A stretch of DNA of 64,000 nucleotides from Physcomitrium patens. Lineage: Eukaryota > Streptophyta > Bryopsida > Funariales > Funariaceae. The position numbers were made by a program, and so were the translations under genes. How positions within the stretch are numbered: the first letter of the stretch is position 1; each line of letters opens with the position of its first letter. The notes under the pieces were generated by a model, which saw only the letters and a list, made by a program, of their open reading frames with translations, searched no databases and was not told the origin of the DNA. The stretch covers positions 7,085,506-7,149,505 of the forward strand of contig NC_037273.1 in assembly GCF_000002425.4 (NCBI RefSeq), read 5' to 3'. Positions 3,173-41,540 of this stretch are shown in pieces.

Positions 3173-3517
3173 CTACAACAGCACCATGGCTCTGCTGCTG
3201 TCTCTCCGCCCCACCCCCTCCCCCCCGGCGGCTGGTCCAACCATCCCTGGATCGCTGATGGCAGGAACCCAGATTGGAAGTGGAGAGCCCACAAACGGAG
3301 GGACATCCGTGTGTGCGTCCGAAGGCATTTCCAAATCCGGACCCCTATTGCTGTAAAGTGTGGCGCCCAATGCCAGCCTTGAGAGCACACTCTCGCCTCC
3401 AGAAATAGTGTGAGCCGTGGGCGCAATGCAGTGACGGGGAGACCGAAAAGTTGGAGCGAGATGGCCCTGACCCAGGCTCCCATCCACCACAGCAGACGAC
3501 GATGAATCCCCCTGCAT
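3173..3517 (-). CDS. Possible first exon or ORF of an unknown gene, 114 codons
   Basis: Open frame from ATG 3517 in a GC-richer block upstream of RLK copy A, same strand. The product is rich in Ser, Gly and Pro (starts MQGDSSSSAVVDG; contains LPIWVPAISDPG) with no TM or family I recognise. Composition is more protein-like than the overlapping frames, and CG-rich sequence at 3520-3780 could be its promoter. It could instead belong to a long 5' leader of RLK copy A, or be chance. No downstream exon could be joined with confidence. Confidence 0.25.
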   Translation of the reverse strand: MQGDSSSSAVVDGSLGQGHLAPTFRSPRHCIAPTAHTISGGESVLSRLALGATLYSNRGPDLEMPSDAHTDVPPFVGSPLPIWVPAISDPGMVGPAAGGEGVGRRDSSRAMVLL

Positions 3518-3839
3518 CGATTGATCGATCGATCGTTCTATCGATGATGATGACTCGCATGCGAGAGTTCAACCAGGGTCGACAATTCCCTCGCGATCCC
3601 GGAGCTTTTCCCGACGCATCCACGCCCATCGTCTCCCACAAGTTTCTAAATTTCGGCGCTTCGTGATATTACGCATCCGCGTCTTCTCACGATGCAGAGT
3701 AGACATGGATCCACTTTCGTCCGTCCACTTCACCCAACTTTCGTCCTCGTCCTCGTCATTCTTCGTTCATCGACTTTAACGGCATCCTCGCTTTTCGTTG
3801 GACATTCTGCATAATTCGAGGGTAGCGCAGGAAACCCCC

Positions 3840-4562
3840 ATCATTAATTTTAGGGTGGCACCACTTGGAAGAATTGAAAATAAAAACAAGGATCAAAGAA
3901 AAAAGGGAATGAAAAACATTATCACTCTAACAAACTTGTACTTTTTATTCTATCACTTTTTTACTTTTCCCATCTATGAAAAAAAAAAACAAAATTATAA
4001 ATATAATTATCATTCATTTTTCATTACTAATAATTTTGAGTTGTGTGCAAATGGTGCTAAAATATTGACTTTACTTCAATTTCCAAAGGCAAGTAGTCAC
4101 AATTGCTATGAACTTAAATCTATTTTTTGTCATTAGTATATTAAAATTAAAAAATAAATAATTACATGACTTAAAGTTCACATTGGTTGAGATTAACTTG
4201 TTACAAAATTTAAAAAGATGTAACACTCAGATTAAGATTGCTTTTTGACTGATGCAGTAATGAATGATTAAATAAATAAAAATAAATATAAAAATCCTTT
4301 TATAATGACTTAAAATTCATCAGAATTATTTAATTTATAAGGAATAATAAATGAAAATATATATATCACTTTAAAAAAATACAATATCACTGTAAATAAT
4401 TGATTACTTATTGTATATGTTAAACTATTCTTTAAAATTATGGAAAAAAATCATACCATGTGGCTCTTCTTAATTGCTTGATTTATTTTTTATTTTTTAT
4501 GTTATGCTAAAAACAAAGACATTGATATTTGTGTCAAAAACCCCCAGCATTAAGCGTCATTT

Positions 4563-4602
<40 letters not shown>

Positions 4603-5129
4603 CAAATTTTAGAAAATTACTTATTAAATGTTTTTATCAAAAAATAAACTAAAAATACTTGTGATATTGTGACTATAAAAAATAATTATTTTTGGATACC
4701 AATATAAAACACGTATAAGACACCAAAATTTTATTTCAAATTAAAATTTAAATCAATAAATAGCTGATTGATTGTCTTAGAATAACTTCTTTCTCTCAAA
4801 AAACCATGCATGCTTTTTTCCTAAAAAGTTTAAATTTTTTTTGAGAAATCTATATCTGTATAAAAGGTAGAATTAATAGAAATTATATTTTTTATTGTAC
4901 TATATGTTTTCTACTTGAATTCCTTTTTTTTCTTTTATGTCTTATCTATTTTTTTTTCAATTTCATATTAAATTTGAATTAAAATGTTCAAATAATACAT
5001 AAAATACAAGATTTGCAATTTTTCAAGTTTTTAATTAAAATTTCTTTAAAATTTTGCAAACATGTAACATAATTATCTTTACCAAATATAATTTCATTAT
5101 TTAACATATGTATTAAAATGAAAAAATTG

Positions 5130-5167
<38 letters not shown>

Positions 5168-5522
5168 TTTGAAAAATCATTACAAATGTTTCAATGTATT
5201 TTTACAGTACATTATAATCTTAGTTTCACTGATGACATTTTATGATTTTCAAGATATTTGACACTTTTCCAGAAATACTTATAACTAACAAAGTCTACTT
5301 TTTTATTAAAACAAATTCTTTAAGGTTTTCAGTTAATGATGTCAAAAATCACATTAAAATGAGATTAAAATAAGATTAAAATACGATTATATTGATAATT
5401 ATTTTTTGAACCATTTAATAAAATTTGTTTCGTATATAGACAAATCAATTCTTTTGCTTGAATATACAAACTTATAAATGTATTGGAGTACAATGAATTC
5501 TATGTAAACAATCAAACCAGAA

Positions 5523-5564
<42 letters not shown>

Positions 5565-5990
5565 GTGTGTGTGTGTGTGTAAACATAGATAAATCTTGAA
5601 CAATTGTGAAAAAAGAAAGTTTGTAATTGAATTTATGACAGTCATGGTAATCCACACTTACAATCTTCGCAATGAGGTTTTTCTTTCTTTTTTTTTCTTT
5701 CTTACATAATCTTACTAACTCCTATTCTGAATGCAACTGAAAATCTATTCTAAAAATGCTTCCACTCTATAGAAAATTATAAAATAATATTCTCCAACAG
5801 CAGTGAAAACCACTAACAAACATACTCCAATAGACAATCACTTGGGAATTCAATCCAAAAGCGTAGACAAAAGTCTGCATGTATTACTACATGAAATCGC
5901 ATATAATACAAAATAAAACACTGGCTTCATTCTACCAGAAAACCTACAAAAACACAGATGAGGTTGAACAAGTTGGATGATCATTCCTCC
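3840..5990. other. AT-rich intergenic DNA with microsatellites
   Basis: Geneless stretch between the two RLKs. It holds (TA)n tracts at about 4566-4601, 5134-5161 and 5525-5562, the last running into a (TG)n tract to 5580. No coding frame or intact transposon domain seen. The short frame at 5472-5657 only translates the dinucleotide repeat. Confidence 0.7.
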
Positions 5991-6716
5991 ATAGGCGCCA
6001 CCCATTCAAGCTAACGATGGCTAAATATATGCAGAAGAAGTCCGTTAAAACAGAGCCAGAAAGAGTAGCAGATGCTTAATTTAGTGAAGGAAAGCCTTCA
6101 TATCGATGAACTACCACCATCACACTCGGCAGATAAAACAAAGGTTTCAATGATTTTGTTTTTAGATCCGTTGTGTGATGTGGCTGGTGAGCAAGAGAGG
6201 CTGCCTTAACAGGTTACGAGTTCACATGTGCTGAATACAAAGGTTGCATATATGGAAGAAGTGACAGTTGTACTAAAGAGGACCAGCTTGTGGCAGAAGA
6301 GCTTCAAGGCTGCTGTGGTGTCGCTATTTCTCGGCAGTTCTTTGTTTCTGCTCCACACCTTCCTTGAAAATTAATAGAAGATAAGTTTCGTGCAGTAGTA
6401 ATTTGAGAGACAGTTTTTAGTCCGACATGAGCTGAATCTGTGAGTACATCGGTCGAATTCAGTGGGATTGGTTTTTGGAAGCGACGGTAGTAATTGACAG
6501 CAATGTTCAATAATGAATCAATTACACAAACTTATTATTAAAACAATCAGTCTCGGCTTGAATGTTGTTTATCAGATCGCACCAATGATGTCAGTCGTCC
6601 ACATTATGTACATCCGATCAACATGCGAATGACTACTACTACTACAACAACAATTTGTCAATGAGTCTCGATGCCACAAGCTCGACAAAAGGAAAACACA
6701 GAGGAATCGGATTTCT
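5991..6716 (-). other. 3' flank and probable 3' UTR of LRR-RLK copy B
   Basis: Composition rises towards genic levels next to the copy B stop codon. No convincing ORF; the short frame at 6304-6510 is unsupported. Assigned as 3' UTR/flank by position only. Confidence 0.4.
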
Positions 6717-9153
6717 CTACACGTCAGGGCGCTCGGAAGGATTGTGAGAATCAGACGATGGGGCTGACGGCGTCTGGTGAAAGGACGGGGTGTTTTCCAC
6801 CGAGTCCTGGTCTTTCTCACTACCCTTCGATTTTTCCTCGGAGACGCTCTCAGACTGTCGAGATGCTTCGTCGCCAGTGTCAGAGGAAAAAGGATGCACA
6901 TCTTCGAGAAGAAGGTGCACATCGGCCATCTTCGGACGCCGGTCGGGAACGGCGTCAACACATTGCATGGCAATCTGCAGCATACCCACCATTTCTTCCT
7001 CGATGTTCTGATAGCGCATCAGCTCCAGGTCAAATACTTCAGCTGTCCATTCTTCTCGAACCACGGATTGCACCCAGCCTGGGAGGTCGATGCCTTCTTC
7101 GTTCATCGAAACTTGAGCCGGTGCTTTCCCGGTTAAAAGCTCCAGCAGTAGCTACAAAACCAACAGAATGGGAACGGTTACTGAAGGACGTGGAGAGTAT
7201 TACAAGACAGGGACACGACTTTCGTGGACTTGAAGAGAGTGATTATGGTACAAGGAGACATACCACTCCGAAGCTGTACACATCGGACTGCTGAGTCACT
7301 TTACGAGTCTCGGAGATCTCGGGTGCTCGGTAACCGATTATTCTAGAAGAGGCAGATGTAGAACTAAGCAACTGTGCCAGCCCAAAATCTGATATACAAG
7401 CTTCTAGATCTCTGTTTAGAAGAATATTCGATGACTTGATATTTCCGTGCACGAATCTGGATCCTCCTTGAGCATGCAGATATGCAAGTCCTCTTGCAGC
7501 TCCAAGTGCAATTCTTACTCTGGTCACCCAATCCAGAGGTGTGCGGCTGCTGCCTCGGTTGCCTGCGAAACATGTAGCAGATAAGCTATGTCACAAATCT
7601 TAAGAAATCCATCAATTACAAGGTGTCTTGCTTAGTGTGCCGAAATACATGTCCAAATGTCACCGTGTCAAAAGAACTCACCATGAAGGAGAGCGGAAAG
7701 ACTTCCCATAGACATGTAGTCATATACCAAGAGCTTCTCGTCTTTGGAAAAGTAATAAGCACGAAGAGGCACCAGATTCCGGTGCTGCAGCTTCCCGACT
7801 ACTTCAATTTGTGCTTCAAAATCCTTCCTGCTAATGGACACATCTTTTAATCTCTTCACAGCCAAGATGGTCCCCTCCTCGAGAACCGCTTTGTATGCCG
7901 TTCCTGCGCTTCCCTTGCCCAGCACCTCGGCCGAGGCGCGCAACAAATCCTCCAGATCAAATGAGAACCTCTTCCCTTCAAAAAAGACCAATTTGTTGCG
8001 CTCCAGATCCCCTACAACAGAGCTGGAGAATTCCGCTCCCGGTTCCTCAACACCCTTGTCGCGCGCTTTCTCACGAGCTTTCCTAGGTCCTGCAGGTTCC
8101 GAAGAACTCCGCCAATTCTTGATTCGTTTCCAAAAGCATAAAAAAAGCCCGATGATCAAGAGTATTAGCAATACAATTCCACCGACAATGATGGCTGTTA
8201 AAGCAGTAGACGATAGCAGCTTTTGCTTCACTGTCGTCCCCGCTTCTGGCTCGGTAGTAGGGATGGGACTCGGTACTATTGCCAGCGGGCACACGGTGGC
8301 GAGAGGGAAACCGCACAAGCCAGGATTGCCCAGCAAAGGATCTGAGCCAAATCTGAATATACTTGCTGGTACAGGCCCTGACAAGTTGTTATTGGATACG
8401 TCAAATAGCGTTAAGTTCACCTGATTGAAGTCAGGAATCCTTCCGGAAAAGGAGTTGTTGCGGAGATTCAGCAAGTGAAGGCGTGTGAAGAGGCCAATCG
8501 CGTCCGGAATAGTCCCATTAAACCTGAAATTACAAAAGTACAACTAGCGAATCAGTCAATACCATTAGGAGAGAAGCCCCGGATAAGAACAAACAAATCA
8601 CAACCCATCAAGCGATCCACAGTCAGAAATTCGAGGTACTACATGAAAAAAAATGAGACGCAAAAAAGAAAATTATAGCTGACCTGTTGTACTCCAAGCT
8701 CAAGTGCGTGAGCCGGGGCCAGAATCCAGTAAGATTTGGTACGGGTCCATAAAAATCGTTGCGCCCGAGGTAGAGTGCATGCACATGGTTGCAATTTCCC
8801 AGTTCGCCAGGAAATGGACCTGTCAACTGGTTGTTGCGCAGGCTCACAACTCGAAGCTCTGAGAGCAAGCTCAAACTGGAGGAAGGTATGATGCCTGTGA
8901 GCCCCTCACCAGGCAACCGAACTTGAGTGACACGGTCTCGAGAGCATATTATACCATTCCAGCTGCATGTTGAGGTCGTGTTTATCCAGTTCAGTTTAGT
9001 TCCTCTGGGGTCGAACACGTTTCTGAATGTGATAAGAGCTCTCGTGTCAGCTGCTAAGTCCTGGCCTGCTGAGCAAACGAAAAACAGGACCACCATAAAT
9101 AAGATTGCGACATTGGCCGTACTTGACTCCCGATCACGGTTTCCCTTGGCCAT
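6717..9153 (-). CDS. LRR receptor-like kinase, copy B (probable pseudokinase), complete
   Basis: Tandem paralogue of copy A. Exons 9153-8684, 8523-7682, 7562-7264 and 7151-6717 (stop TAG), all GT-AG, phases 2, 1, 0, total 681 aa. Signal peptide about 1-38, LRR N-cap Cys pair (CSWNGIIC), about six LRRs to residue 213, LCGFP motif near 225, TM about 266-288, kinase about 353-620. Glycine loop at 359-366 ([10 protein letters not shown]), lysine K380 (AVKRLKD), HGN instead of HRD at 476-478, DFG at 496-498, APE present. The missing catalytic Asp predicts a pseudokinase, as is known for this RLK subfamily. The C-tail after the kinase is Ser/Glu-rich. The start ATG 9153 matches copy A; an in-frame ATG 27 nt upstream would put a Cys/Ser-rich stretch before the signal peptide. 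Head-to-tail order and identical exon phases show local duplication. Confidence 0.96.
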
Positions 9154-9486
9154 CTCTGACGATCTGCTGCAGTCGTACAAGCTTGCTGGGCAGAGAGGGG
9201 GCTAGAATACTGTCATGACATCCTTGGTCTGGAGGAATGCATATCTTTCCAAGTGCGAGACAATTCGTCTGCCTCTACCCGAGATTCTTTCATGATCCTG
9301 AAGGTCGATGCAGGCTTCGACAGCTTCAACTACTACTGCAGTTCAACGGAAACCTGCACTAAGATCACAACTTTTACAACGTTAGACCTTACAAACCCTT
9401 CGCGCAATGCATCTGTTGGTTCACCTCTTCACTATAAATGTAAGGTGCTCATTTCCAGTAATGAGTGTAGCAGAATACCACTCGGG

Positions 9487-11604: not shown

Positions 11605-13763
11605 TTTAAACTCTATTTGATGGTAGAAAAATCTATTCATCTAATAATTATATTAAGGACACAAATCTAGACATACATTAGAAGAAACAACATACTAATG
11701 TATAAATGAAAAGAAAAGAATTAATAATCAAAGAAGACTCATAAATAAAGATATAACTAAAAAAAAATGGCTATTGTCAAATACAATGAAACAAAAGAAT
11801 CTTAAATAGAGATCAAAATATAAAAAATACATGTAAAAGTTTTGTAAAAATTATAAGGTTTATTAGTCATAAATTTAAGTTATTAGTTGTTTATATAATG
11901 GCTTTTTAAAAGCAGATATCTTTTAGAGAAAGTTTTCATAGCAAAGATATATCTAAGATATATCTATATTTATGATATATCTAAGATAATCTATAGATCT
12001 AATATGTATTTATAAAGTTTTGGTGGTTTTTTTTAAAAATTAAGTACAAAATTAATTAAAAATTCCTACTTATATTTGATTATAATTTTCGAAGTAATAC
12101 ATTTTGTCTTTTTTAGAAAAAAATCTCATCAGAAATAGTTAAAATATTTTACAAATTGATAAGTCTGAGATTTTTCAATTAAGGTTTGCTACAAAAATAT
12201 AATATATGATTTGTACAAAAGTGGTTGGTATATTATTTAAAATATTAATAATATTATATGTTCAAATAGAAAGACCACTAAATTACTTGATCATTATTCA
12301 AGCTTTATAAGCACCTTCAAATAATAAATTTTAAATAACATCAAAAATATTATCTACCACATATAGTTTTATAAAGCACTAATATTCTTTTTTAAAATTA
12401 TAATATTACATGTATTGTGTCTTATTATGTATTTAAAGAGGATCATGTTTTTTTCGAAGTTCTTTATTTAAATTTTGATATATTGAAGATTGAAATTAAA
12501 TTATTAATTTTTTAATTTTTTAAAAAATAATATTCTTTGAAACAAATTCATTGCCTGTTTATTTTCTATTTAATTATATAAATTAGTGATAATTTTTAAG
12601 TAGATACAAAAATTAATTATTAAACTTGTTTCTTTTTAACTAATAACATCTTATTGTTAATGATTGATTTTAATTTTGAATAGATGTCAATGATGTATAC
12701 TCTCTAATATTATACTATAGTCTAATACATTAATAATATTCTTAGATAAAATTAGCATATGCTCATTAATATCATATTTTAATATTTATATAATATATAT
12801 ATATATATATTTTATATTACTTTAAATTAAAGAATATTTTCTCTTTAATATTTTAATAGTTTAATATTTTAGTTTAAATTTATAATAATTTTATCTTTTC
12901 ATATATTTAAAAAATATTATAAATTTTAAAGAGAGATAGAACTTTTATTGATTTTGTAAATATTTATTTATTTTAGAAAATACAATTAATATGTAACTAT
13001 ATTGATTAAATTTTAGATAAAAAATAGTCTGAACAGCTAAAAAGCTATTAAGAAAAATTCAAAATTTTTAATTTTATTAGTATAAAATTACAAGTCATCA
13101 ATAACTTTAAATAAAAAATTGAAATTTTTGGTTGTTGATGTTTTTTTGGTTATATCTTTATTACATGGTGAATCTTTGATATTCTACTTTCTAGTTGTTT
13201 TACTATTAGGTCCTTAAATTTTAAAAATTAAAAACTATTGATTTTTTAAAATCAAAAATATTTTAAAAAACAAATAATATTTATTAAATATAATAACATA
13301 TTATGTTGCTACATAAAATAATTTTAGCATAATAAAAAATTATAAAATGATATAATAGCATAGTATAAATATTTTTAAAATAATTACATTATAAATTTTA
13401 TTTATATATTATATTAAAATATTTTTTAAAAAAACAACTTGATATGAACTATTAAAATTATAATGAGCATCTTCTAAGATTTTAGAGTAAATTAGGGTCT
13501 TTAAAAAAATATAATAATAATTAAAATTTTATGATATTTATGGATAATATTTTTAAAATATCATTTTTTCATTAATAATAATTTTTGTATAAGATGTAAT
13601 ATTTATTATTTTAATTTAAAAAAATACTATATAAAAGATAGAATTACATAAACTTAAAATAAAAGTTTCATAATAAAGTACATTGAAACTAATGACTTTA
13701 GTTATTTTAGAATAGATAATGATTGGAGAAGCTAATATGTATCAAGGACAAGAACTTGAAGAA
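10743..13763. other. AT-rich geneless DNA, decayed repeats
   Basis: Very AT-rich with (TA)n at 11567-11602 and 12789-12810. The segment about 12220-12450 resembles about 15700-15980 (shared order: TTACTTGATCATTATTCA-like block, a CTTCAAATAA block, then TTGTGTCTTATTATGTATTTAA-like text), so it is a relic of repeat families seen inside the neighbouring gypsy element. No coding domain recognised. Confidence 0.5.
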
Positions 13764-14294
13764 TGTAATTAAATATATGAGATGTGTCTCAAAGAAAGAT
13801 GATAAAAAATAAATAAATATGTATATTTAAGAAGAAATTAGAATGCCTAATGCCATAGACAAAAAGCTATAGGTTCTTGAAATTAAATTAGAAGAAAAAA
13901 AAAAGAATTGATGAAAGTGAGAAAGGCCTTTGCTTCTATATATATTATTTAACTAAAGAGTGATGTAGCAATGTTCATTTTGACACATGTCTATTTGCAA
14001 GGAAAGTTTCCAATATGTGTGTCATATGACTAACTTGTATCACAAGTAACCAAAATGTGTAATATTTGGCCAAATTGTAATATAAGTGGTTAATATGTAT
14101 AACATTTAGTCAACTTGTTGGCCAAGTTTTTAATCTATCAATCATTTATAAATATTTACAAAGTCAAAATTTTATTTATAAAGCTTCTAAGAAGCTTTTC
14201 CATAAGACATTATCTAATTTACCTACTTCTACTTATTCTACATAATTTTTCTTATCTAAATAATTACTTGTCTCATTATGTTTGTAACATTACA
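13764..14294 (-). repeat. Left (3') LTR of the gypsy element
   Basis: Begins TGTAAT and ends ATTACA on the plus strand, the TG...CA form of an LTR. It matches 23195-23687 and the solo LTR at 29872-30344. Shared markers include the CTTGC-AGG-AAGTTT block, TGTG(T/C)CA(C/T)ATG and the AAGTCAAAAT/AAGCTTCTAAGAA blocks. Confidence 0.75.
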
Positions 14295-14344
14295 TCTCAT
14301 TTAGAAACAAGTTCCATAAAAAGTAATGTTGTATTGAAATACAA

Positions 14345-15600
14345 CTATTAGATGAAAGAAAAAAAATAAGATTCTATTATAGAAGAACTTAATTGAAAAT
14401 ATTATAATAAATTAATTTATAAATATAGATAAAGCTAAAAGAGTTAGAAAAACTATTAAATGCTAATATTTCTTTTATTAAAATAGAATTCTACTTATTT
14501 TTCATGGCCATAAATAAGGCAAAAGAAAGTAAAAGAAAAAAATGAATCATATAGACAACTTGATGAAAGAATTCAGAGTAGATTATAGCAAAAATTACCT
14601 TGAAAACTTAAAAATTGGTACCCAAAGATTGCAAAACAGACTTTAGAGGGACGTTTTTAGCATTGGCTTTAAGTGATTAGATAGATATTGAGTTTTTAAG
14701 AGCTTTCCAAAGTGAAAAATGTTTTTGATGATTTTGAGTTTTGAGAAATAAAAAGAGACTTGCATAGTTGAAGAATTTTTATTTATCATAGAAAAAGTAT
14801 AAATAAAGTTTTATAGATTTTTAAATATCTTTTAAAAATATAAGATCAGTTAAACTCTGAGATTAAAAGATATGATAATTTAAATAGATTAAGGTCTTGG
14901 AATATTGGATTATAGGATTATTGAGATTTTTTGTCATTTTGAAAAATCTGGTAGTTCAATTGAAGAATTTTTTTATTAGAGCATATTAGACTTAGATTTG
15001 TATAATTTTGCTTATATGCAAAGAAATTGTATGGTTTAAGAATAAGTAATCTTTGCTAGAAGGTCAACATGTAAATTGGAGAAGAAAGATGGTTGACACT
15101 TGAGAGTATTCGGAGCTCTTTTTTCCAATGAATAAGTTTGATTTTTCTTAAACTTTGTGTGCTTATAGTTCACTTGAATATTGAAATATGAAAGTTATTT
15201 TAATAAAAATTAATATTTTAATTAATATTTATTATAATTTAAAAATTATCTTAAGGATTTAATAGAATTTATTTAGGATTTATTTAGAATTTTTTAAAAG
15301 ATTTCATTAAGATATGATTAGGATTTGATTAAGATTTATTTAAGATTATATTATGATTTTATTAGGATTTATTTAATATTTATTTAGAATTTTATTTTAT
15401 TTTTTTAGAATATCTATTTTAATATATTTTTAGAATTTTTAAAAATGTTTTAAAGATTTAATTATGATTTTTTTAAAAAAAGCCTTTAATACTTTTTTAG
15501 AATTGATGAAGGTTTGATTAGAATTTCTAAAATTTAATTGGGATTTATTTAAAATTCTATTAGAGCTATTAAAACCTTTATTCTTATAATTTCTAATTTA
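14345..15600. repeat. 1.3-kb AT-rich repeat, copy 1
   Basis: Aligned by eye with 17880-19250 and 55380-56940. Common landmarks: GGCCATAAATAAGG, TAGCAAAAATTACC, GAGTTTTTAAGAGC, TTTTGAGAAA, then a long run of degenerate units of the form ATT(A/T)(A/G)GATTT. Non-coding; part of the gypsy-family DNA or an element inserted before that family spread. Confidence 0.55.
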
Positions 15601-16224
15601 ATTTCCACAGCCAAGAGCTTGGTACATTTTCAAATAAGACAACATGTTATACAATAATAGTGATTATATGTTTAAGAAGTCTAAAATATAACAAATTCTA
15701 TTTGCTAATTATTCTAATATTTATTTTATTTGAAGGTAGTTGATAGATACTCTCAACCATCAATAGTATTTTATATTAGAATAAAAAGATCATCTTATTA
15801 TTTGATCATTATTAATGTCTTTATAACATCCTTCAAATAAAATATTTGGAATATCATAAAGAATATTTTTTTACCTTCAATAATATCACCAAACATCAAA
15901 AGTCTCTTCTAAAGTTGTAATATCAAATACACTATATCTTGCTATATATTTAAGGAAAAATGTATTGTTCTTAAAAGTCTTCATCTCTATTATGTCATCT
16001 TGGAGGGTGCAAAAATCTCAATATCTTGTCTAGTAATTGAGCAAATAATAGCTCTCGAGTTAAATATGTTGGTTGTTAATTCTTTATATTGTTATTGCCA
16101 CAAAATACAAAGAAATCACGAACAAAGATAGAAAATAGAATGAAATCTTTATTGAAATAGCTTTGTTATATACCAAAGAATTTCTTAATTCTTCATCTTA
16201 ATTTTTATAGATGATATTAGCAAA

Positions 16225-16375
16225 AAAACATCAATCTTTTTTGCTATATTTGCAAGATCCCAAAATGGCTCCTATGTATATTCACTAATATCATTTCTAT
16301 GCCAATATATAAGATATTTCAACCTATATTGATATTTTCTTGAGTCTAAGACCTTATCTATTTCAATTTTTTTTA
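16225..16375 (-). pseudogene. Gypsy chromodomain remnant
   Basis: Minus-strand translation gives the chromodomain signature: acidic start, VLDSRK, then LKYLIYWHR, a stop where the conserved Trp of TWEP belongs, then EPFWDL. This is the C-terminal module of chromovirus integrases (known family). It fixes the class and orientation of the element. Confidence 0.7.
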
Positions 16376-17879
16376 TTGTTTTTTACTTCTTTAGGAAGAA
16401 GTGACATATGTCTACTTTCTATTATATCTATTGTCTTATATGGCTTAAGAAGAAACACATTAAAAGCAAAATGGATTTTCATGGACTTCAATAAATATAA
16501 TTAATATGCAACTAGATTGATCTATTCACAAATTAGATATGATCAAAGTCTACAATAATATTTACTATTATAAAAACAAATAGTCTTGATATTGTAATAA
16601 AGTAATCATATTTTATTGCAAACATAGAATAGAAGTTGTTTCTTGCAATAGACATTTGAATTAGCCTTTTTTTTATTCTTAATTTTTACTTAATTATATC
16701 TTTATTGGCCACAAGATTATCAATTTTTTTAAAGTCAAAAATATCAAATTATGGATGATAACTATAATTAGTATAAAAATATGATTTTTGAATAGAAGAA
16801 TATATTATGATACAATAGAAATTTTTTTCTAATAGTAAAAGATTTTTCCAATCATCTTAATAATAATTGATGGTACATCTCAAATATTACTTTAATACTT
16901 AATTTATTTCTTGTATTTATTCATCAATTTGACAATTAAAGGCCAAAGATAATTTTATGATTATCTTCAATATCTTAAAAAGAGTTGTCTAAAACCTAGA
17001 TATAAATCAAGTCTCTCTATTTGATATAATATCTCTTAAAATTTTATAATAGTAATAGATATAAATAAAAAAAATAGTTGTATCTTCAATTTTGTTACTT
17101 TTTTTACATGGTACAAAATGTGCCATTTTAGTGAAACAATCTACTATTGCAAAGATAAAATTATAAGAGTTTAAGATTTAAAGATAAGTGATAAAATCCA
17201 TAGAAATAGAAGACTATGATTGTTTTGATTTAGATAATTGCTAGAAAAATCTATTTAGCAAAAGACAAAGAGTTTTTAATTTTAAACAAATATTGCATGA
17301 TTATGAAAAAAATTTAAGTGCCTTCCACATTTGATACCACCAAAAATTTCTTGAAGTTAACTTTAAGGTCTTATTGTATTCAAAATTTTGTTTAATTTAA
17401 AAAACTTAACAAACTTGATAAGTATGTAATTTTACTTCAACTTTTGGAACATCTAAGCATCATTCAAAATAAAAAAAGGTTGTTCTTCAATTCAAACTTA
17501 GAAGTATCATAAATTGAAAAGAATTATTCTTTGTATGATATATAAGAGGATTTGAGGACATACTTAATAAAAATTGATAAAATAATATTGAATCAGAAAT
17601 AAATATTGGTTTTATTATTTTTAGATGAAATTACTTTGTCTTCAAAGAATTGTTTGTTGTTGATTCAAAATTTGTGTTTTTTAACATAAAAACGTCTAAA
17701 AAAATATTTAATAAACTACATTATTTTCATAGCTAATAATTGATAATAAATACAAATTCTAACAAGAAAATGCTCTTGTAAGCTTGGTGAAAATTTAAAA
17801 TATGTATTGACATAAATACTTTAGTTTCTTGTAAATTACATAAACAATCACTAGATTCGAAATAATTTTGTGTTTCAAC

Positions 17880-19250
17880 ATGACTATTGGATAAAAAAAA
17901 GAAAAAAATATTATATTATATAAGAGCTTATTTTGAAATGTAGTAGAAAATTATCTTAGATAAATAAATGATAGTTAAGAAGAAAATAAAATTAATAAAT
18001 GTTAATATTGTCTTTTTATAAAAAAGAAAATATTTACTTTATAAGGCCATAAATAAGGTATAATAAGGTATATTGGCAAAAATAATATTTTAGGAATGTT
18101 TAAGTAGAAGTAATGAATAAAAATAAATTAAAATTACTTAAATAAATTAAAAATTAACACCTACAAGGGCCGGTTAAATTTTAAAAGTATAATTAATTAA
18201 AAAAAAATTAAGAACTGGTTTTGAAGAATATGAATGCATATTAATTTTGTGTAAGCTTTGCAAAAATTGAGTTATTTTTGGTAATCCTATTTTGCATTAA
18301 ATAAAAAAGACATCACATTTTCGTAAATAATATAAAATTTGTAGCAAATCTACAAATAAAATGCTGTGAATTTATAGATATAATTGTATCAAATACAGGT
18401 TGTGACTTTGAGATTAATTGAATAGTTAGATTAAAAGTTATTAAGGTTCAAGTGAATCAGAATCTTAGACACTAGATTTTTAAGGATAGTGAGGATTTCT
18501 TAGATTATTTTTAAAAAAATCTGGTTGGAATTGGAAAGTTTCTTTTGTGTGCTAATTGTAAAGTAAGGCTTTTACGATTTCAATTTTTTTGAAAATAAGT
18601 TGAAAATACAAAAAAGGAGATATTTAAGCTAAAAGATTTACATTAAGATTTAAGAAAAAAATAGCCAACAATTAAGAAGATTTTGATTCATTTCTCTTAA
18701 TTTTTAATTTATATTATTTTAATTTTTTAAAAATTTTAACTAATAAATTGAAATATATGAAAATTTAAAATTAAGATAAATAATGAATATAAAATTATTA
18801 ATTTTTAAAATATATAATAGCATTTATTTATAAATTTTCAGAGTTTTTTTGAAATTTCTTTTGTATTTCTTTAGGATTTTGTATTATTTCTTTAAGATTT
18901 ATTAGTAAATACTTTAGAATTATTTAATTTTTTTAGGATTATTCTTTATTTTTTATAATTTCATGTGATTTTTTAAGAATATTTTTATATTTTTATTTCT
19001 TTAAGATTATTTTGATTTTTTTAAAAATTTAATTAATATTTTTTAATAAGATTATTTTAAGTTTATTTGAAGTTGAATAAAATGTAATAATGTTTTTAAG
19101 TTATTTAAGATTTTCAAGATATTTTTAATTACCTTATTAATTATCTTATGTAATTTTTTTATTTTTTTAATCCAATTTCAAGATAAGATCAAATATTTCT
19201 CTAACTAAGTGCATAGTATATTCTCAAGCTAATTTTTACATAACACAATA
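17880..19250. repeat. 1.3-kb AT-rich repeat, copy 2
   Basis: Same landmarks in the same order as copies 1 and 3 (GGCCATAAATAAGG near 18053; TTTAGGATTT-type units at 18840-19090). It ends at CTAATTTTTACATAA, next to the RNase H/RT remnants, the same junction as in copy 3 (near 56935). Confidence 0.55.
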
Positions 19251-19639
19251 CTTCCTTCTAGATATTGGTGCTATTTCTAGAATGAATCTAAGATTCTAAG
19301 AAACTCTTTGTTGTGGATCTTATAGCTGATCTTAATTGCTAATTTTTTTAAAATAAAAGACTATAAGATAATACTTATTATTTTCTTCTATTTTAGACAA
19401 TACTACACTAAAAGAAAGTTTGATGTATTTTTTTTCCATAAAAAATGCCTCAAAAAAGTCAGTATACTATAAGATTAATGTTAAAGTAAAAATTTATTCA
19501 CAAAGCTTTAAATGCTTCTATATTCCATTCAAGTATGTCTTTATAGATCAAATGTGTAAGTAGAGCTATAATTTGAAAAAAGATTTGATAAAAATTTAAT
19601 AATAATTGGAATTTTAAAAAAAATATTGGATGTTTTTTA

Positions 19640-20045
19640 CTCTTAGAATCTTCTAATCTATTATAGTCTAAACTTTCATTGGATTGATTATAAGATCATC
19701 ATTTAAAATAATATAACCCAAGAAATTAACTTAAGTTGTGTAAAATATACACTTTTTCATCTTGACATATAATCCTATGTCTCTAAGTTTTTTTTTTAAA
19801 CACACAACAAACATAATATTTATATATATATTTTTTATTTTATAGTTGATTAAAACAAATTTAAGGTTTAAGAAAAGGATCATCTAAAAAATCTTAAAAA
19901 ACATCATTTATTACATGCTGAAAAAAATTAGCATATTTGTGAGTCCAAAAGGCATGATATTGTATTTAAAATGTCCATGCTTGTTACCAAACATAGTCTT
20001 CTATTTATCTCCTTCTTTAATATGTACCAAATTGTAAGCTCATTA
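19640..20045 (-). pseudogene. Gypsy reverse transcriptase remnant (palm to thumb)
   Basis: Minus-strand reading gives YNLVHIKEGDK, then YGHFKYN-type GHFKYNIMPFGL, a decayed YxDD region, then GLYVKMKKCIFY and NFLGYIILNDDLIINP. These are the palm MPFGLTN and thumb KCxF...FLGH motifs of gypsy RT. Several stops interrupt the frame. Confidence 0.75.
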
Positions 20046-20059
20046 TAGATCTATTTTTA

Positions 20060-21110
20060 AATATTTATTTATTTAATTTAAATGATCAAAAAGTCTATTA
20101 ATTCTAGAATTATATTTATTTTTTAAAATTTTAAAACCATTTAATCTTAATTAATAGATAAAATGATAAATTTTAAATCTTTTATAAGATATAATTTAGA
20201 GATAATTTTGTAAAAAAATAATAAAAGACTTGGTATAAAAAGGAATTTAAATAAGAAAAAAATAATAAAAATAAAAATAAAAATAACTTTGATATAAAAT
20301 AAAGTCCAAATAAGAAAGAAAAACTTAGTATAAAAAGAATTTTAAAAAAAGCTAATGTAAGTAGGATTAGAAAAAGAGAAATTATTATCAAAAGGCAAGG
20401 TGGTTAGCCGCCCATGTATAGAAAAGACAAGGTGGTTAAAACCAACTTAGGAAATTAAAAATAATTTGAATAATTAAAGTTTCTAGAAATAAAGTAATTT
20501 TATTATGTTTAATAATATTAAAGAAATTACTATAAGAAAGTTATAAATAGCTAAAATATTATTATAAGTATTATAATATAAATTCTAATAAAAGTTTATG
20601 ATTAATATTCTATCTTAACTTATATTTTTATTTTTTTAATACATAGTATAAGTCTTAAGTTATGAATAAACTTAAGTTGATTTTTATATAAAATCTTGGT
20701 CTAATTGTTGATATAAGAAGCTATAGAGTTAAGGTCATGGAGTTAAAAATTAAGTTGTATGGAAAGCTTTATTAAGTACAATCTATAGTTTTACTTCAAG
20801 AATAATATATCTATAGTTTATATATTTTGTAGTAAAGACTCACTTGGTGATAGTAGAATATTACAAGACATAGGTGAATAAGGAAATTAAGAAATTAATG
20901 TATCAAATTATTAAAGATAGATTGAATGAAAAATTGATATAATTTTTTTTTGATATTTTCAATATCAATAGAGTGATTTACAATAAAGGTAGAATAAAGA
21001 ATGATACTTCAAGAATTACTTAGAAATAGTTCTTATATATTGGCATAGAAAGAATATCTTATGATTTCCAAAGTGAAAGAATTAAGGTATGCAAAGTCTT
21101 AATATTAAAG
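20060..21110 (+). mobile_element. Inserted segment, opposite orientation, inside gypsy RT
   Basis: It separates the two RT remnants. Around 20990-21070 the plus strand repeats the text found on the minus strand at 16290-16360 (shared TCTTATATATTGGCATAGAA), which encodes the chromodomain. So a 3' piece of a related gypsy element appears to sit here head-on to the host element. Ends not defined. Confidence 0.4.
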
Positions 21111-21119
21111 ATAGAAGAT

Positions 21120-21220
21120 ATCTATTCTTATTAGTAACCTTATTGACTCCTTGATAATTCATACATATCCATAACTTTTTTATTTTTATTTTCTATTTTT
21201 TATAAATAAGACAAGAGATC
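21120..21220 (-). pseudogene. Gypsy reverse transcriptase N-terminal remnant
   Basis: Minus-strand translation contains KLWICMNYQGVNKVTNK, matching the gypsy RT motif with the (I/M)(D/N)YRxLNKVT pattern. It lies about 1.1 kb from the palm remnant that should follow directly, so DNA has been inserted between 20060 and 21110. Confidence 0.65.
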
Positions 21221-21779
21221 CCACTTAAAATTTTAAATAACTTATAAATTCTTTAAAATAAATCTAATTCAATATTCTAATAAGTTGTAAATTAATCTAA
21301 ATAGTAGCTGAATTCATTCTTGAACATGAATTGAACAATCATTAAAACAATATTATAGAATATATATATATATATATATATATTAAAATTTCTTAATAAT
21401 TCTTATAGTAGAAAATATAGATATGTTATAAATAATAAAAAATGATTTTTTTTCAATATACATAAAAATTCTTGATTTAAAAATAAAGATTTTGTTGAAT
21501 TAGATTTATAACTTTTTACTTTGTTAGCAATTAGGCTTGGTTATACAATGAATAAAATTAATATTACAAGAAATTCAATGTATCAAAGAATTAAACTTTT
21601 TTAGCCACAATAAACCTGAAATGATTGGATTAGAGGAAGATCCAATAATATTGAATATTATCAAGCTATTATAATTAATTACTGCTACATCTATAAGTAT
21701 AGATTCATTAATAATATTTCCAAAAGATAAGAGAAAACCATCTATAATTTCTACATGTACGAGCTTAGTTTCTTTCTAA

Positions 21780-21850
21780 AAGATAAATTATGTCTTTTAA
21801 TAAAGTCTTCATTTAAAAAATAAGTTAAGACTCTTAAATCTAATAAAGTA
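21780..21850 (-). pseudogene. Gypsy aspartic protease remnant
   Basis: Minus-strand reading gives LLDLRVLTYFLNEDFIKRH. It follows the D-S/T-G-x-x-x-x-F-(I/L) pattern of retroelement proteases, with the active-site DSG altered to DLR. Position upstream of RT is as expected. Confidence 0.5.
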
Positions 21851-23194
21851 GGAACTTTTTGATTTTTGGATCTAAAAAAATATCTATCATTAAACAAGAT
21901 GATGGTTTTAAAAAAAGAATAAGATCTTCATTAGATGATTCATTATGTTACAATTGCATAATGCCTATTGTAGCTTGATAAACTTATATTTTAATACATT
22001 ATCTTCTTTGGCATCTATGCTCCTTATTTTGTAGTTGTATTGCTTTTTGAACAATGATGAGTAATATTTTTGGATTTTCAAAAATATGAACATAATTCTT
22101 CTTAATAATGTTAAGTCTTTTCTTACTCAACAAGAAGCTTAAAATATATTGAATAAATTTATATTTCTTTGACTTTTGAATATATGTATTAAGAGAACCT
22201 CAATGTTGCTATTGAATCAAAAAGACATTAAAACATACTTGTGTGGCTCTTAGATCAAAATTCAAAGAACTAATAATTACACTTCATAATAAAATCAATT
22301 GATTGATTTAATATTTAAAGGTCACAAAAGTTCAACATCAATTATTTTATCTCAAATTACAATCTATAATAAAATTAGCAAATGAATGCAAGATCATCCT
22401 ACTTAATATCAAATGCAAGTTATTAGAATTGTGAATCATATATTAAATTTGAATAATTTCTTTGATGCAAAATAAAAATCTTGTTAATTGTAATACAAAT
22501 TGCATCATATTTTCTATAAATAAATCAATTTTTTTTAAAAAGCTTTTAAATTATCCAATATTAGATTATATTATTTAAAAAAGATAAAGGCTATAATAAA
22601 ATAAAATTTAAAAATATCATTTTAATTAACCTAATTTATGATATTAAAATTGGATAACTTTGAGGTTGAAGCTCAATTATTTGTTATATTTGATTAATAA
22701 ATTATTGAAAATTTAATTTTGTCTCATCAAAAAATTTAAAGAAAATAATTTTTGATTTTCTAATGCTTGAATAATATTCCACTGTAGGAGAAATAATATG
22801 ATTTGATGTACGTGTTGATGCAACTTCAATCACCTCTATATCTTCCAACCAATTTTCTTTGTTCTTATAGTAGTGAATTAAATTGATGCATTGTAAGTAC
22901 TAACTCATTTATTTGCTTCTATATTTTTTCTATTGTATCCTTTACTTTAAGAAGCTTTCTTATAATAAGACAATAAAAAGAAGAAGTCTAATATATTTTG
23001 GAACTAATTGAAGAGAGGAATTAAGAACAAAGAAAATTCTAAGAATAATATTAATTTAGAAGTAGATAATTAATAACCTCTAATATGCTAATTTCTTATT
23101 AAAAAAAAGGAATAATCTACTCTTAATTAAAAAAGACAACTATAATATTTTTAATATATTTTTATCAAATTATTAAAGATAAGACTTTTAAAAA

Positions 23195-23687
23195 TATAAT
23201 TAAATAAATAAAATTTATTTCAAAAAAAGATTACATAAAATAAATGAGAATATGAGTGGTTAAGAAAAAATTTGAATGATTATTTCTAAAGAGAAGAAAA
23301 TTATAGATTCTTGAAACTATACTAGAAGTAAAAAAGATATTGATAAGAATAAAGAAGGCCTTATTCTTGCTTTTATATATAAAATCTAATTAAGAAATTA
23401 TGTGACAATGTTCTTTAAATCACCTAATACATGCCTAACTTGCAAGATAAGTTTTCAACATGTGTGCCACATGGCCAACTTGTAAAATAAGTAGTCAATA
23501 TGTGCAATATGTGGATAACTTCTTTGTTAAGGTTTTAACCTATTAATTAGCTACAATCATTTATAAAGTCAAATCTGCATCTATAAAAGTCCACAAATTA
23601 TTATCAAATTTATTTACCTCTATTTACTTCTACCTAATTCCTCTTATCTAAGTAATTACTAGTATTAATATATTTGTGATAATATCA
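23195..23687 (-). repeat. Right (5') LTR of the gypsy element
   Basis: Upstream LTR in the sense of the element. Colinear with 13764-14294 and 29872-30344. Ends are blurred by decay; the left end starts TATAATTAAAT where the other copies have TGTAAT. Confidence 0.7.
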
Positions 23688-34960: not shown

Positions 34961-37235
34961 TAGACCACTTTACATACATGAGTGGATAGTTTATTTTTTG
35001 TATTGAATTAAAAGTGCCAACTCATGGACGTACTTTTATTTTATTGTTATTTTTTATCAACTACACCTGGTCAAAGTGAATGTTGAATGTTGATGAATTT
35101 GTGATATTTCATAATGTTATACACAATGAAAAGAAAAATGAATATATGGATGTATTGATATATGTGGTGTTTCACTTTCTATATATATATATATATATAT
35201 ATACACAAATTATAATTTGGGAATTTTTAAATTGACCTAGATATTTACTAAATCAATCATCATTGGTTGAGGATGCAACTATTTTTTTCATTGGTTTTTG
35301 ATTGATCCAGATCTGGCATTGGAGAATTTTTTGATGATGGTTAGGATAAGTGGGTGAGTTTAGTAAATGCTTGGATCAATTTAACAAACCTCTAAAAAAT
35401 TTGTTTTAAAATAGTAACAACCAACAATATTTCTTGACGTTCTTATTTATTGTCTACCTCTACATTCAATTTAGATAATTGTATTTAAAGAGTGGATTTT
35501 ACAAAATAGAAATAAACAAACAAATAAACAAACAAATAAAGGTCTTTTAAAGTAGCATATGTTGTTATAAATAGATGCACAAATAAAATTTGTTTGATGT
35601 CAAAATCCAAAAAGAGACCTGAGTGTTTGTATTAAAATAAAATTAAAAAATTAAAAAATTAAAAACTAACAAACAAACACTGGAAATGATGGTATCTTAA
35701 AAAATATTACGTTTAAAAAATCATGTAGACCTCATATTATATTTGTTTTTATATACTTTTTTTTTTGTCAAGTATGGGAAAAGTAACTTTCAAGCAGTGT
35801 AACATCTTGATTTAAAAATGCTTATGGTGACTTTATATCTTTTGGTAAAATATTATTGGTGTTAAGTGTAAGGTCTTCTGTCTCCTAAAACATTTATTAA
35901 TATGCGCTTCTACAAAGTTTTATCAAATTAAGATTGATTTCAATTCATTTAATATTTTTTTCTATTTGAAGAAATAAAGAAATAAAGAAATAAAGAAATA
36001 AAGAATTTAAGTTCATTACATACATATACATAACTGATAATTTAATTGATTATTTTATATTTTTTTACAATTACCATCTACTCAAATCTTAATTTTTTTT
36101 TTTATTTTTAGAATTGTTTTAATCACCGAGTTTTTTGTGACTTGTATTTGGAATATAGATGTGTATATATATATTTGATATTTTTTCATATAAGTTTTGT
36201 TGGCCTTCTCAATATTTGATTTTCTAGAGGAAAAAAAAAACAAACAAATAAACAAACAAACAAAAAAACAAAACAAACTCAACCTTTGAAATATATTTCA
36301 CATTGACATTTTTTATTTTTAATTTGATTTTATTGTCTTTAAAATAGGAGTTGTGCTCACTTCTATTTCAATTATGAATTCAAAGAGGTATTTACATCAT
36401 CTATGCAGGAAGTCTTTATGGTTTTAATCGTGTAGCTGTATTCATTTAGTTTTGGTCTAGTTCAAATGTTCCATGAAATGTGTCCCTAAATGATTCTTTA
36501 TTCTTACATTCAGGAAGAAAATTTTGCATCAAATACATCAAATACAACAAAGATGAGTCAAATTTTGACCTTTAAAGCTGAAAGAATTTAATTCGTGATT
36601 TAAAACGCTTTTAAAACCTGTAAATGCATGAACTTTGTGATCACAAAATTGGTATTTGCAAATCAAGCGTCAAATCACTTCAGACAAATATAACTCAAGT
36701 TAACAAGATATTAAGGGCAGGAATGAAGAAAGATGAAACAAAAAAACAATGAAAATGATACCAATTGATAAATTTTGATACATGATTAATAATTTGAGCA
36801 CGAGTTTCTATTTTTAATTTGTAATCAAATAGAGGGAAAAAATCAAACAGAACAAATCAGTAAAATAAGAATTTATTAATATCACTAACTATAAACTTTA
36901 CATTATTTTATTTCTGATTAGCATTAACATGTAAAATACATCAGATTATTTTAAAAATATTTTAACCATTATTATACATAAATATATGCAAAAAAATTAA
37001 AGATAAATCTTGATATGGGATTAAATTGTATTTAATAGTAAATTTCTATTTATATGTATTTTGAATGAGAGTTAGTTTTATATGTGAGATTTACCCTTTT
37101 GTTTTTGAAGAGAAATCAGATCATGTATATACTAAATTCATAATATTTTTCCTTGATGTTGTGGATCATCTTTATTGAATGTCATATCAATCTCATAACC
37201 TAAATTAGAAGAATTAGTTGTATCATGAGTTACAC
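34961..37235. other. AT-rich intergenic DNA with simple repeats
   Basis: Geneless. (TA)n at 35180-35203, (ACAAATAA)-type runs at 35512-35540 and 36236-36275, and a four-to-five copy AAATAAAG repeat at 35965-36004. About 36300-37235 probably contains the 3' UTR of the XRCC4-like gene. No transposon domain recognised. Confidence 0.6.
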
Positions 37236-40200
37236 TTATAGGACATTGCAATCTTTATCATTATTTCCAAAACATATCTTAGCTACACAAAGAATACTCT
37301 TATTAGAAAAATCATGACAAAATGATTGTGATGCTAAATTTTTCTTATTCAATTGAGCATTGATTGAAGATGGTGAATGTTTGGTGGATTTTTCATTGTT
37401 TTGTGTGTGTTCAATTGGAGTTTGTGTAGAATGTACTATTGGATATAGACTACTGTAAGGACCCATTTCAACTTCTTGCCTTTGATTCATAGAATGACTT
37501 CCAGCTTCAAAATCCACTCCATCATCATACTCATTTCCTCCTTTGAATTTGGGTCCAAAATGCAAGGCCCCAACAGATTTTGATGGAGCTTTTAAAAAAT
37601 TAGAGTAAACAGATTCTCTTGATTCTGAAGAGGATTGAGTCTTTTGTTTTAATTGGGCTAAATCAGCTCCAATTTTATCTATGGAGTACCGTCTCGGTTC
37701 ATCATCTCGTCCTCGTACATGAGTAACATGAGTTTTTTTTTCATATTGGACTTTGGGTGTATACATGCTCTCTTGCTCTTGTGCTTCGAGTTGTTTTCCA
37801 AGTTTAAATGACAACTCTCTCCTTACTTCCTCAATTGAGGCCCTTTTAGATGAATCCATCAATTGGTGATCATCAATTAATTCATTCCCAATTTGATTAC
37901 CAGCACTTGTCTTTTGATTTGATTGTTGAAGATCAACATATTGATGTGACAATTCCTTCTCATTATTTTGGATTGTTGACAACAATTGTGTTTGAGTTGG
38001 CATAGGTTTGTAATCTGTGGTTAAAGTGGATGCCTCCCATGTGTTATTGTTTTTTTCACTGTTGCTTGGTGCATCTTGAAACAAGGCCTTAATACTTTGA
38101 ACAAAAGATGGTTTAGATTCTTTTGGAGCTTTGGATCCTAATGAATGAGCATAAGACATTGATCTGATTGATTTCTCAGAGTTATTTTTTTTGGGATCTT
38201 TGTAAGACAATGCTCCATATGATTTATAGTAATTTACCCCATTTGTATCATTTGTAGACATATGCTCTTCATAACCATTTTTGTTGATGTTTGTGTCACT
38301 AGATTCAATAACAATTTCATTTTTAAATGAATCTTCAAGATTGTTTTTATTTGATGGCTTCTGGAAAAAGGATGCAATTTTACCAACAAACGACTTTGCT
38401 GACTTGTTCTTTGTTTGGCAGGTAGTTGGTGAAACATAAGACTTTGAAGGTTTCTTTTTGCTTGCTTGAATGTTTGTAGTTGAGTAATTTTTCCATAAAT
38501 CTTCTTCATCATAATGTTTAAATTCTATTTTTTGAGCATTACCCTGAAATTGTGAACTTTCATTTGACATATTTTGAGATATTGATGTGTTGTTTGCAAT
38601 AGAAGTCGATGGCATACTTTCTTGCAATTCATATGTAGATGTTGAAGGATTTGACAAATGAGGTTGTTGAGTATTTGCAACATAAGATTGCCTAAATTTT
38701 GTGTCTTGCACACATGCATCATTAGTTTGTGATGGTACATCACTACTTGAATTTTCTCCCCAAACAATATGTTCTTTTTGTTTGTTATGCGGACCATGAT
38801 TTAAAATAGATTGAATAGGGGGCTGTATGTATGCACCATTATTAGATTCGTTTTCATTATTATGGGGTGATTTATCATAAGAATCTTTGTAATCTAATTC
38901 TGATTCATAAAGGTCGTTTTTAATCTCAGAGTAAGTGTTGTTTTGAAGATTGAATTTAGCACTCTTTGCAGATTTATTGTTATTGTTTTTGTGAGATTTT
39001 TCTTTTTTGGGAGTAGGATTTGAAAGATTGGATTCTTGGAGGTGATATTGACATGGAGCTGACTTCCGAGCCCTATGGCTATGCTTGCTATTTGATGAAT
39101 TTCCATTTGATACATAACTTTTACTTCGTGATGATGGGATTTCATACTCAATTTCTTCATCCGTCCCATACCCACTTGCATCCATTTTAGACTTTACATA
39201 TGAATGTTTAGGCGTTTTGTAATAGGTTTTTTTTGGCTCGTCTTCTTGGGGTGCGGGTATAAAATTCACTTTAGAGCCTCTTTTCTTTGCTCTATCAAAG
39301 TTAAATGGAGGTGCTATCTCAAATGATACATCTTCATCTTGTGGTTCTTCTTCAATCATGATATCATTATCAAACTCATTGTTGGGTTCCACGTGTTGTT
39401 CAACAGTTGGAGGCAACAAGTATTGATCACTGTGTGGTGGTAAATCATGTTGTGTGGGTAGAAGGTTTGAATCCCAATTTGTTTTTATTGATTGTTGAAC
39501 TTCATTGTATGAAGATTTGAAAAATGATAGTTGCTCTTTAAAGTCCACATCCACTACAAATTTCTTGTGAATGGTAATCTTCATAGGTGCAATTACTACA
39601 CTTATGTTCTTTGAATTGTGGTTCCAATCCAATTCAGAATGTTTTGAACAAGTATGTACAATTTGTTGTTCATCTTCATTAGACGAATTGTGATGAAAAT
39701 TAACGGTCTCATGCTCCTTGTTTTGTGATTGCAATTGATCCTCTTCAATGTTTTCTTCTTTAAAGATTTGTGGTGATTCAATTGGATCATATTGACTATT
39801 CTCTATATCATTATCATTCAATACAACACCATCATTTGAAACAAAATTATGATCATGGAACATTTGTTGCCTCAAATTTTGCTCTTCATTCCAAGAGTTG
39901 TCCATGAGTGAATCATTATTCTGATCTTGGTATTGTGATGAAGATGGTTCATTATCCTGATCTTGGTAATGTGATAAAGATTGTTCATTATTCTGATCTT
40001 GATAATGTGATGAAGATTGTTCATTATTCTGATCTTGATAATGTGATGAAGATTCTTCATTTTCATTGAAATAGTTAGTGTTTTGGTTGGTAGAAGAATG
40101 ATTCTCTTCAAATGGTTCATTTTTTACACTATTTGATTCCACATGTTGTTCAGATTGTTGATAATTCATAACACTTTGATCTCCCACAGAATGAGTACCA

Positions 40201-40390
40201 TACTCTTTCAAATCATATCTTAATCTGCGTATTTCAGCAGCTAGTCTTTGAATGTCACGAGTCTTTTGCGCAAGCTCTTCCTTCATACATTTTATTTCAG
40301 AACATAGTTAAATAAAATTTGTGGGAGTTTTTTCTTCTTCTTTCCCTCATTAAACTTAAAACTTTAATTTATACCAAGTATTTATTGCTC

Positions 40391-40426
<36 letters not shown>

Positions 40427-41540
40427 CACATATATAGTAAGAAACAGTGGAAAATAAATCACACATATTGCTTGGTGTTTGTATCCACAAGCAACTCCAA
40501 TAAGTCATAGGCCATGCTCCCACAACTAGTGGTCTTATGAAACTCTAGTTTCACCAACAGTCTTTCCTCCATCATCTCATCCAGAAATGAACATTCCAAC
40601 TATCATAAAACAAACCAATTATTTTTATTTTTATTTTATTTTAAAAAACACTTGATTACATAACGTTCTGCATGTTTTATTAAAAAGACTGCAAACTTTC
40701 ATCACTCAAACCATATTCACATAACAAAAAATCTCACGTAAAGATGTCATAATACAACATATAAGCAACAAAAACTCAAATGACAGAACTCTAATCAAGA
40801 TTTTACAAATGCAACATGATTGATAAGCTTCGGGTGCAATGCGAGGTTCAAGTTGTGAGTATGTTTTGTGTAGTTGGTGTGGGCTTTGTAGTTGTTGTTT
40901 TTTCAGTGCAAGAAAGGAGAAACATACATGGAGGACTTGCCATTTTGACGTCAGGATCCACGGACATGAACGCATACTTGCTTTGCAAGTGATGTTGGCT
41001 GAAATGAGCATGCATTCGGTCCAACCACTCCACCACTTCGATCCCCCACCGACTGGCTTCATGCGCAACAAACTCTTGCGTAGCTGCTTGCAAAAAAGAT
41101 CAGTGATAGCATTACCATCTTCCACATTCTATCGACACCACTCTAACCACCACTCACACAAAAAACTGACCTCCCTGCCGGATCCTCATGACAATTACAA
41201 TTGGTGGGTGATGGGTAGAGATATTCTCGGTGCTTGGAAACCTAACCCTACCGATGCCGTGCATGGTTTTGAGATGAGGTGGGTGTGCGGAAGCAGTACC
41301 GTTGCAGACCCAAGTGTCGTAGCCGTCCATCACCGACATCAGGAAGTGGGTTGGATACCAAGTACCCTTCACGTAGATGATTTGGGCTCCATTTCCCACA
41401 TCTGCGAGCTGCAGCTTAGCGTAGGTTTCATTCTCTCTGCCCAGTGCCGCGAATTCGTCGTCGCTGTTCATGGTCCCTCGCAGGGCCATGTCCTCTTCAA
41501 TTTGATCCTCTGTCATTGGTAACTCCGCCTTCACATGCAC
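37236..41540 (-). CDS. XRCC4: XRCC4-like DNA repair protein with a giant disordered C-terminal tail
   Basis: XRCC4 is the DNA ligase IV partner in non-homologous end joining in the nucleus (known). Exon model: 41540-41300, 41083-40941, 40599-40465, 40280-37236 (stop TAA), in frame, 1187 aa. Residues about 34-165 match the plant XRCC4 head: IIYVKGTWYPTHF, SVMDGYDTWVCNATQEF, then W..EVVEWLDR and KYAF. Residues about 164-201 start the coiled coil; EELAQKTRDIQRL aligns without gap to the plant EExxxKTRxxxxx stretch. After that the usual KFLxVLNxKKAKLR stalk, where ligase IV binds, is not seen. Instead there are about 980 Asn/Ser/Gln/Glu-rich residues with repeats. Intron 2 uses GC-AG (ATG|GCAAGT); intron 3 has a (TA)n tract and a weak acceptor. 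Head-exon identity is firm; the join to exon 4 is inference. Alternative: a separate gene starting at ATG 40286 (MKEELAQK). Confidence 0.8.
39912..40052 (-). repeat. 36-nt coding tandem repeat in the XRCC4-like tail
   Basis: Four units of 12 residues (consensus SSSHYQDQNNEQ) at residues about 250-296, perfect 36-nt period, with a few changes in units 3 and 4. Probably a slippage product that has kept the reading frame. Confidence 0.9.
40396..40422. repeat. (TA)n tract inside XRCC4-like intron 3
   Basis: An alternating TA run in the 184-nt intron between the last head exon and the giant tail exon. It is typical of the many TA microsatellites in this window, but sits where it could affect splicing. 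Confidence 0.85.

Follow-up and report, generated by a model that had tools for sequence, protein, structure and literature searches.

An intron-bearing XRCC4 paralogue with a long tail in the moss Physcomitrium patens

XRCC4 is a core end-joining scaffold. In the human protein, the ligase IV site comprises residues 173–195 (excerpt of PMC9071424); XLF and PAXX belong to the same fold superfamily, with a head, a coiled coil, and a low-complexity C-terminus (excerpt of PMC7267773). Here we describe a minus-strand gene in a 64,000-nt stretch of the Physcomitrium patens genome (NC_037273.1, positions 7,085,506–7,149,505, on C21; hereafter the window) that joins an XRCC4-like head to a tail of ~980 residues. 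The same genome holds an ordinary XRCC4 gene on C1 and a second long-tailed gene on C19. We think it probable that the window and C19 genes form a pair of XRCC4 paralogues that kept the intron-bearing head, lost the distal stalk, gained an exon 4 of ~1,000 codons, and most likely serve as ligase-free scaffolds or adaptors of the XRCC4 family.

The four coding exons of the window gene (Table 1) splice to a product of 1,179 aa. A database record (NCBI/UniRef; P0002), annotated as an uncharacterized Physcomitrium patens protein, isoform X2, has a length of 1,100 aa and carries the Pfam XRCC4 domain. Up to residue 1099 it agrees exactly with our splice model. It aligns to the window over four segments (41516-41295, 41084-40884, 40599-40465, and 40280-37479), the first two of which overrun the splice sites. 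Its different end (...NQRL) would come from an optional GC-AG intron (37479-37200), whose splicing would take away the ~80 C-terminal residues of the full-length product. The exon plan given by the first-pass annotation, three head exons spliced in frame to a 3,045-nt exon, thus agrees with P0002, but the start codon of P0002 is ATG 41516 rather than 41540. Exon 4 holds 1,014 sense codons, while the other two forward frames contain 36 and 135 stops, and its base use differs by codon position. In first-order Markov sequences of exon-4 composition, the longest open frame reached 221 codons in one set of 300 and 141 in another, which rules out a chance frame. The gene is confirmed as a real protein-coding gene in which head exons and tail exon are joined.

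An ATG at the start of the 1,016-codon frame that includes exon 4 and a shift in GC content between head and tail exon could instead be read as two neighboring genes, the head exons ending in a short 3′ exon of their own and the long frame being separate. We give this reading almost no credence. P0002 joins head to tail, and the exon 3/exon 4 junction lies at the same position and in the same phase as an intron of the C1 XRCC4 gene and of the C19 gene, whose exon 4 likewise begins with EELA; a separate tail gene is thereby largely refuted. Because it recurs in both genes, the junction is an old XRCC4 intron, with exon 4 beginning at the corresponding residue of the stalk, and this recurrence is stronger support than the plant alignment cited in the first-pass annotation. 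GC-AG introns occur several times among the XRCC4-type genes of this moss: intron 2 of the window gene, whose GC donor is common to the window and C19 pair, and, as placed by our models, the optional intron and intron 4 of the C1 gene.

The ordinary XRCC4 gene (C1:26666007-26667947; L040:507-2447) is modeled with six exons of 172/143/135/123/153/201 nt encoding 308 aa; exon 4 requires a GC donor. Its protein scores 36.9 bits for the XRCC4 family (PF06632) and 29.1 bits, above the cut-off, for the XRCC4 coiled-coil profile XRCC4_CC (PF21924). The gene is hard to find by sequence. At E up to 0.001, neither the XRCC4 family of Pfam nor the Arabidopsis XRCC4 sequence returned more than three loci that encode an XRCC4 head with DUF3444, and the head half of Arabidopsis XRCC4 at E up to 10 returned these loci and exon 1 of the window gene. 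The stalk half gave the one weak match that led to C1 (C1:26666645-26666779, E 2.27). The first three introns have phases 1, 0, and 0, and exons 2 and 3 measure 143 and 135 nt, in the C1, window, and C19 genes alike. Because an ordinary XRCC4 with matching intron phases exists beside a second long-tailed gene, the window gene, judged on gene structure, is an intron-bearing XRCC4 paralogue and not an altered sole copy.

That several searches missed the C1 gene would fit a moss in which the long-tailed form is the working XRCC4, a lineage-specific change of end joining. We consider this very improbable, given the 308-aa frame on C1 with its XRCC4_CC match and a strongly damage-induced XRCC4 gene on record: excerpts of two papers report Pp3c1_38430 as XRCC4 induced 149-fold in a bleomycin study (PMC4990234) and as upregulated in diploids (PMC8803787). 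Judging by chromosome number alone, the C1 gene is probably Pp3c1_38430. The second of these excerpts also names another XRCC4-like gene, Pp3c14_21160, which could not be placed at any locus here. Of the two options raised by the first-pass annotation, a paralogue and a lineage-specific change of end joining, the presence of an ordinary gene supports the first and leaves the second unsupported.

The sister gene on C19 and the three DUF3444 loci had escaped the first-pass annotation. Found with the window head at C19:9062182-9063335, the C19 gene matches exons 1–3 at 67, 39, and 28% identity (the third at E 0.26). Its exons measure 226/143/135/2,889 nt, as against 217/143/135/3,045 nt in the window gene, and its 1,130-aa product follows the same plan, with 962 codons in exon 4. 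PF06632 matches the C19 head at 44 bits, and XRCC4_CC does not match it. In blastp, the two proteins align over residues 10–244 (37.9%, E 4.2e-46), over 1020–1093 (31%, E 0.004), and in four further pieces at E 0.09–6.6. Past residue 244 the tails, taken whole, are as alike as shuffled sequences (65/200 local, 63/200 global), and shared sequence is scant after the first ~40 tail residues. A resemblance in the last 40 residues (ILCVAKICF/VLCVARIRF), a stretch chosen post hoc, reached a score equaled by 8 of 2,000 shuffles. The long-tailed build is thus of long standing and has been retained, but very little of the tail sequence has. When the window was compared with 200 kb surrounding the C19 gene, nothing beyond the gene itself spoke for shared gene order, the other matches being repeat-like (judged by eye, not each classified) and many striking several places; the pair may stem from a whole-genome or from a single duplication. 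Window positions 13660-23680 have many ~65–80% matches there and look like old repeats.

Little shared tail sequence is also what slow decay of duplicates would leave. According to this main rival, an XRCC4 copy lost its distal stalk early and its exon 4 extended into A/T-rich DNA of low complexity, giving a tail that is expressed and does little. Substitution rates between the window and C19 genes speak on both sides. In exon 3, dN is close to dS by YN00 (0.97 and 1.00), and in the last 23 codons the two are about equal (0.62 and 0.59), as decay would predict. The exon 1 core, however, gives dN 0.18 and dS 1.21 by NG86 over 44 codons, and NG86 dS is saturated, without a value, for exons 2 and 3 and for the head taken as a unit. 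The pair is thus old, yet ~1,000 codons have stayed open in both genes, splice phases and the GC donor are kept, and the tails are similar in length and composition. We regard decay as possible but clearly less probable than a retained scaffold.

The XRCC4 homology proposed in the first-pass annotation is borne out by the window head, which scores 42.2 bits for PF06632 against a cut-off of 26.2 (37.4 bits for P0002), and by an AlphaFold2 model of the head and helical stalk, a monomer reaching only the first dozen tail residues, whose best structural match is 1ik9. The stalk helix in this model ends at residue 196, about human residue 170 and thus short of the ligase IV site. XRCC4_CC matches the C1 protein but, at E up to 1, not P0002. 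Apparently, then, the distal ligase IV-binding stalk has been lost, as the annotation had proposed. The XLF head profile (PF09302) is not matched by the window head at E up to 1. The XRCC4-binding profile of ligase IV (PF11411) found no match, but control genomes gave none either, so this negative carries no weight.

The tail is low in hydropathy and, as noted before, rich in Asn, Ser, and Gln (N+Q 18.5%, S+T 18.3%). In a charge-hydropathy plot, the window and C19 tails fall clearly on the disordered side, and both heads barely on the folded side. The window tail has SFVxxIxxxFQ-like stretches at residues 796 and 891, and the C19 tail has one that is similar (the pattern was written afterwards); that these or the 36-bp repeat encode binding motifs would be a guess. 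The 1,016-aa frame matches no Pfam family at E up to 1, nor does the C19 tail match any. Among 4,287 candidates from ~5.8 billion proteins, the only relative of the 1,016-aa frame at E up to 0.001 was P0002, so that no tail homologue was found outside P. patens, a point in favor of decay; the search requires shared 5-residue words and misses diverged tails, of which the C19 tail is an example. With the window head as protein query, the sole match among 336 candidates was a window-encoded frame. A transposon origin of the tail was rejected: neither tail contains a Pfam domain, and no second genomic copy was found at E 1e-3 (3 candidates scored).

Under the preferred reading of a ligase-free scaffold, the head and short stalk would dimerize as in XRCC4, with one ~980-residue tail projecting from each of the two subunits. 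Such a protein would be unable to hold ligase IV in the manner of XRCC4 and would therefore most likely act as a scaffold or adaptor. The heads may contact XLF- or XRCC4-type partners head to head, and short motifs in the fast-evolving tail, a flexible binding surface, may gather other proteins. Human XRCC4 and XLF offer a precedent for the role of the tail: an excerpt of PMC10369993 ties their disordered C-terminal regions to condensates. A bolder version, which we consider improbable, makes the pair decoys or condensate scaffolds. Their heads would compete with XRCC4/XLF filaments or cap them, the tails would recruit other factors, and ends would thus be kept from ligase IV, tilting the moss toward homologous recombination.

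At each of the DUF3444 loci, a single open frame holds the Pfam XRCC4 head. The C10 head and DUF3444 lie in neighboring frames of the same strand and would have to be joined. Searching with the C13 head yielded 8 matches among 1,567 candidates, all 8 with both domains, including the P. patens gene itself (an identical record) and P0008 from Ceratodon purpureus; P0005 resembles the C3 gene by eye. XRCC4_CC is not matched at the C3, C13, or C10 loci at E up to 0.1, and the predicted stalk helix of the C13 protein (residues 124–173) is about as short as that of the window protein. In a tree without C19, long branches met and the placement of the window head was unsure. Trees with C19 place the window and C19 heads in one group (98/95; 99/97 with the C1 gene added), and in the tree with the C1 gene, which is unrooted and has long branches, the long-tailed pair sides with the DUF3444 fusions, C1 and Arabidopsis XRCC4 lying on the other side (94/89). 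Read together with the introns, this grouping suggests, though not firmly, that an early XRCC4 duplicate gave rise to both types.

Table 1. Positions of the exons, introns, and protein features of the window gene (window coordinates) and of the XRCC4-DUF3444 loci.
Feature	Position	Strand	Remarks
Coding exon 1	41300..41516	-	217 nt with a phase 1 end; covers the first half of the XRCC4-like head
Coding exon 2	40941..41083	-	143 nt; size equal to exon 2 of C1 XRCC4 and C19 gene
Coding exon 3	40465..40599	-	135 nt; size equal to exon 3 of C1 XRCC4 and C19 gene
Coding exon 4	37236..40280	-	3,045 nt including stop; stalk end and long tail
Intron 2	40940-40600	-	GC-AG; GC donor common to window and C19 genes
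Optional GC-AG intron (isoform X2, end ...NQRL)	37200..37479	-	Position inferred from P0002
Predicted stalk helix end, residues 166-196 (whole helix 146-196)	40188..40280	-	AlphaFold2 model
Long tail, residues 200-1179	37239..40178	-	Predicted disordered from composition
36-bp tandem repeat, 4.1 copies	39913..40061	-	Within tail open frame
C-terminal nonapeptide ILCVAKICF, residues 1161-1169	37269..37295	-	C19 counterpart VLCVARIRF; picked after viewing alignment
XRCC4 head + DUF3444 (PF11926) loci	C3:3330000-3339500; C13:5004500-5014000; C10:6590500-6600000		L005, L006, L007

Elsewhere in the window, frames at 351-9180 on the minus strand read like two adjacent genes for putative leucine-rich-repeat receptor kinases, and scanning the window for Rfam families and tRNAs gave no matches. 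Among the literature matches listed, none describes a long-tailed or DUF3444-fused XRCC4, and no paper with both XRCC4 and DUF3444 was found. P0002 was already in the databases; the C19 sister gene and the intron match to an ordinary XRCC4 on C1 are new.

A single moss genome thus holds an ordinary XRCC4 and at least five XRCC4-head loci of two other builds; the XRCC4 coiled-coil profile matches 0 of these 5, and both that were modeled (window and C13) are short-stalked. Facile gene targeting in P. patens is described as unique among plants (excerpt of PMC4990234), and a natural XRCC4 head with ~980 disordered residues and without the ligase site would let the condensate idea be tested in such a plant. 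Compared with the ordinary XRCC4 of C1, Arabidopsis, and human, the window protein is alike in head fold, PF06632 match, and the start of the stalk, and its gene shares three intron positions and phases with C1 XRCC4. It differs in lacking an XRCC4_CC match, in the early predicted end of its stalk, and in the added residues, disordered by composition, that bring it to 1,179 aa, where the C1 protein has 308 aa. The moss XRCC4-DUF3444 proteins (C3, C13, and C10; P0003-P0010, including P0008 of Ceratodon purpureus) resemble it in having an XRCC4 head, in lacking an XRCC4_CC match at E up to 0.1 at the three loci, and, in the one modeled, C13, in a short stalk helix; however, they end in DUF3444 and encode the Pfam head in one open frame, whereas the window gene lacks DUF3444 and is interrupted by three introns.
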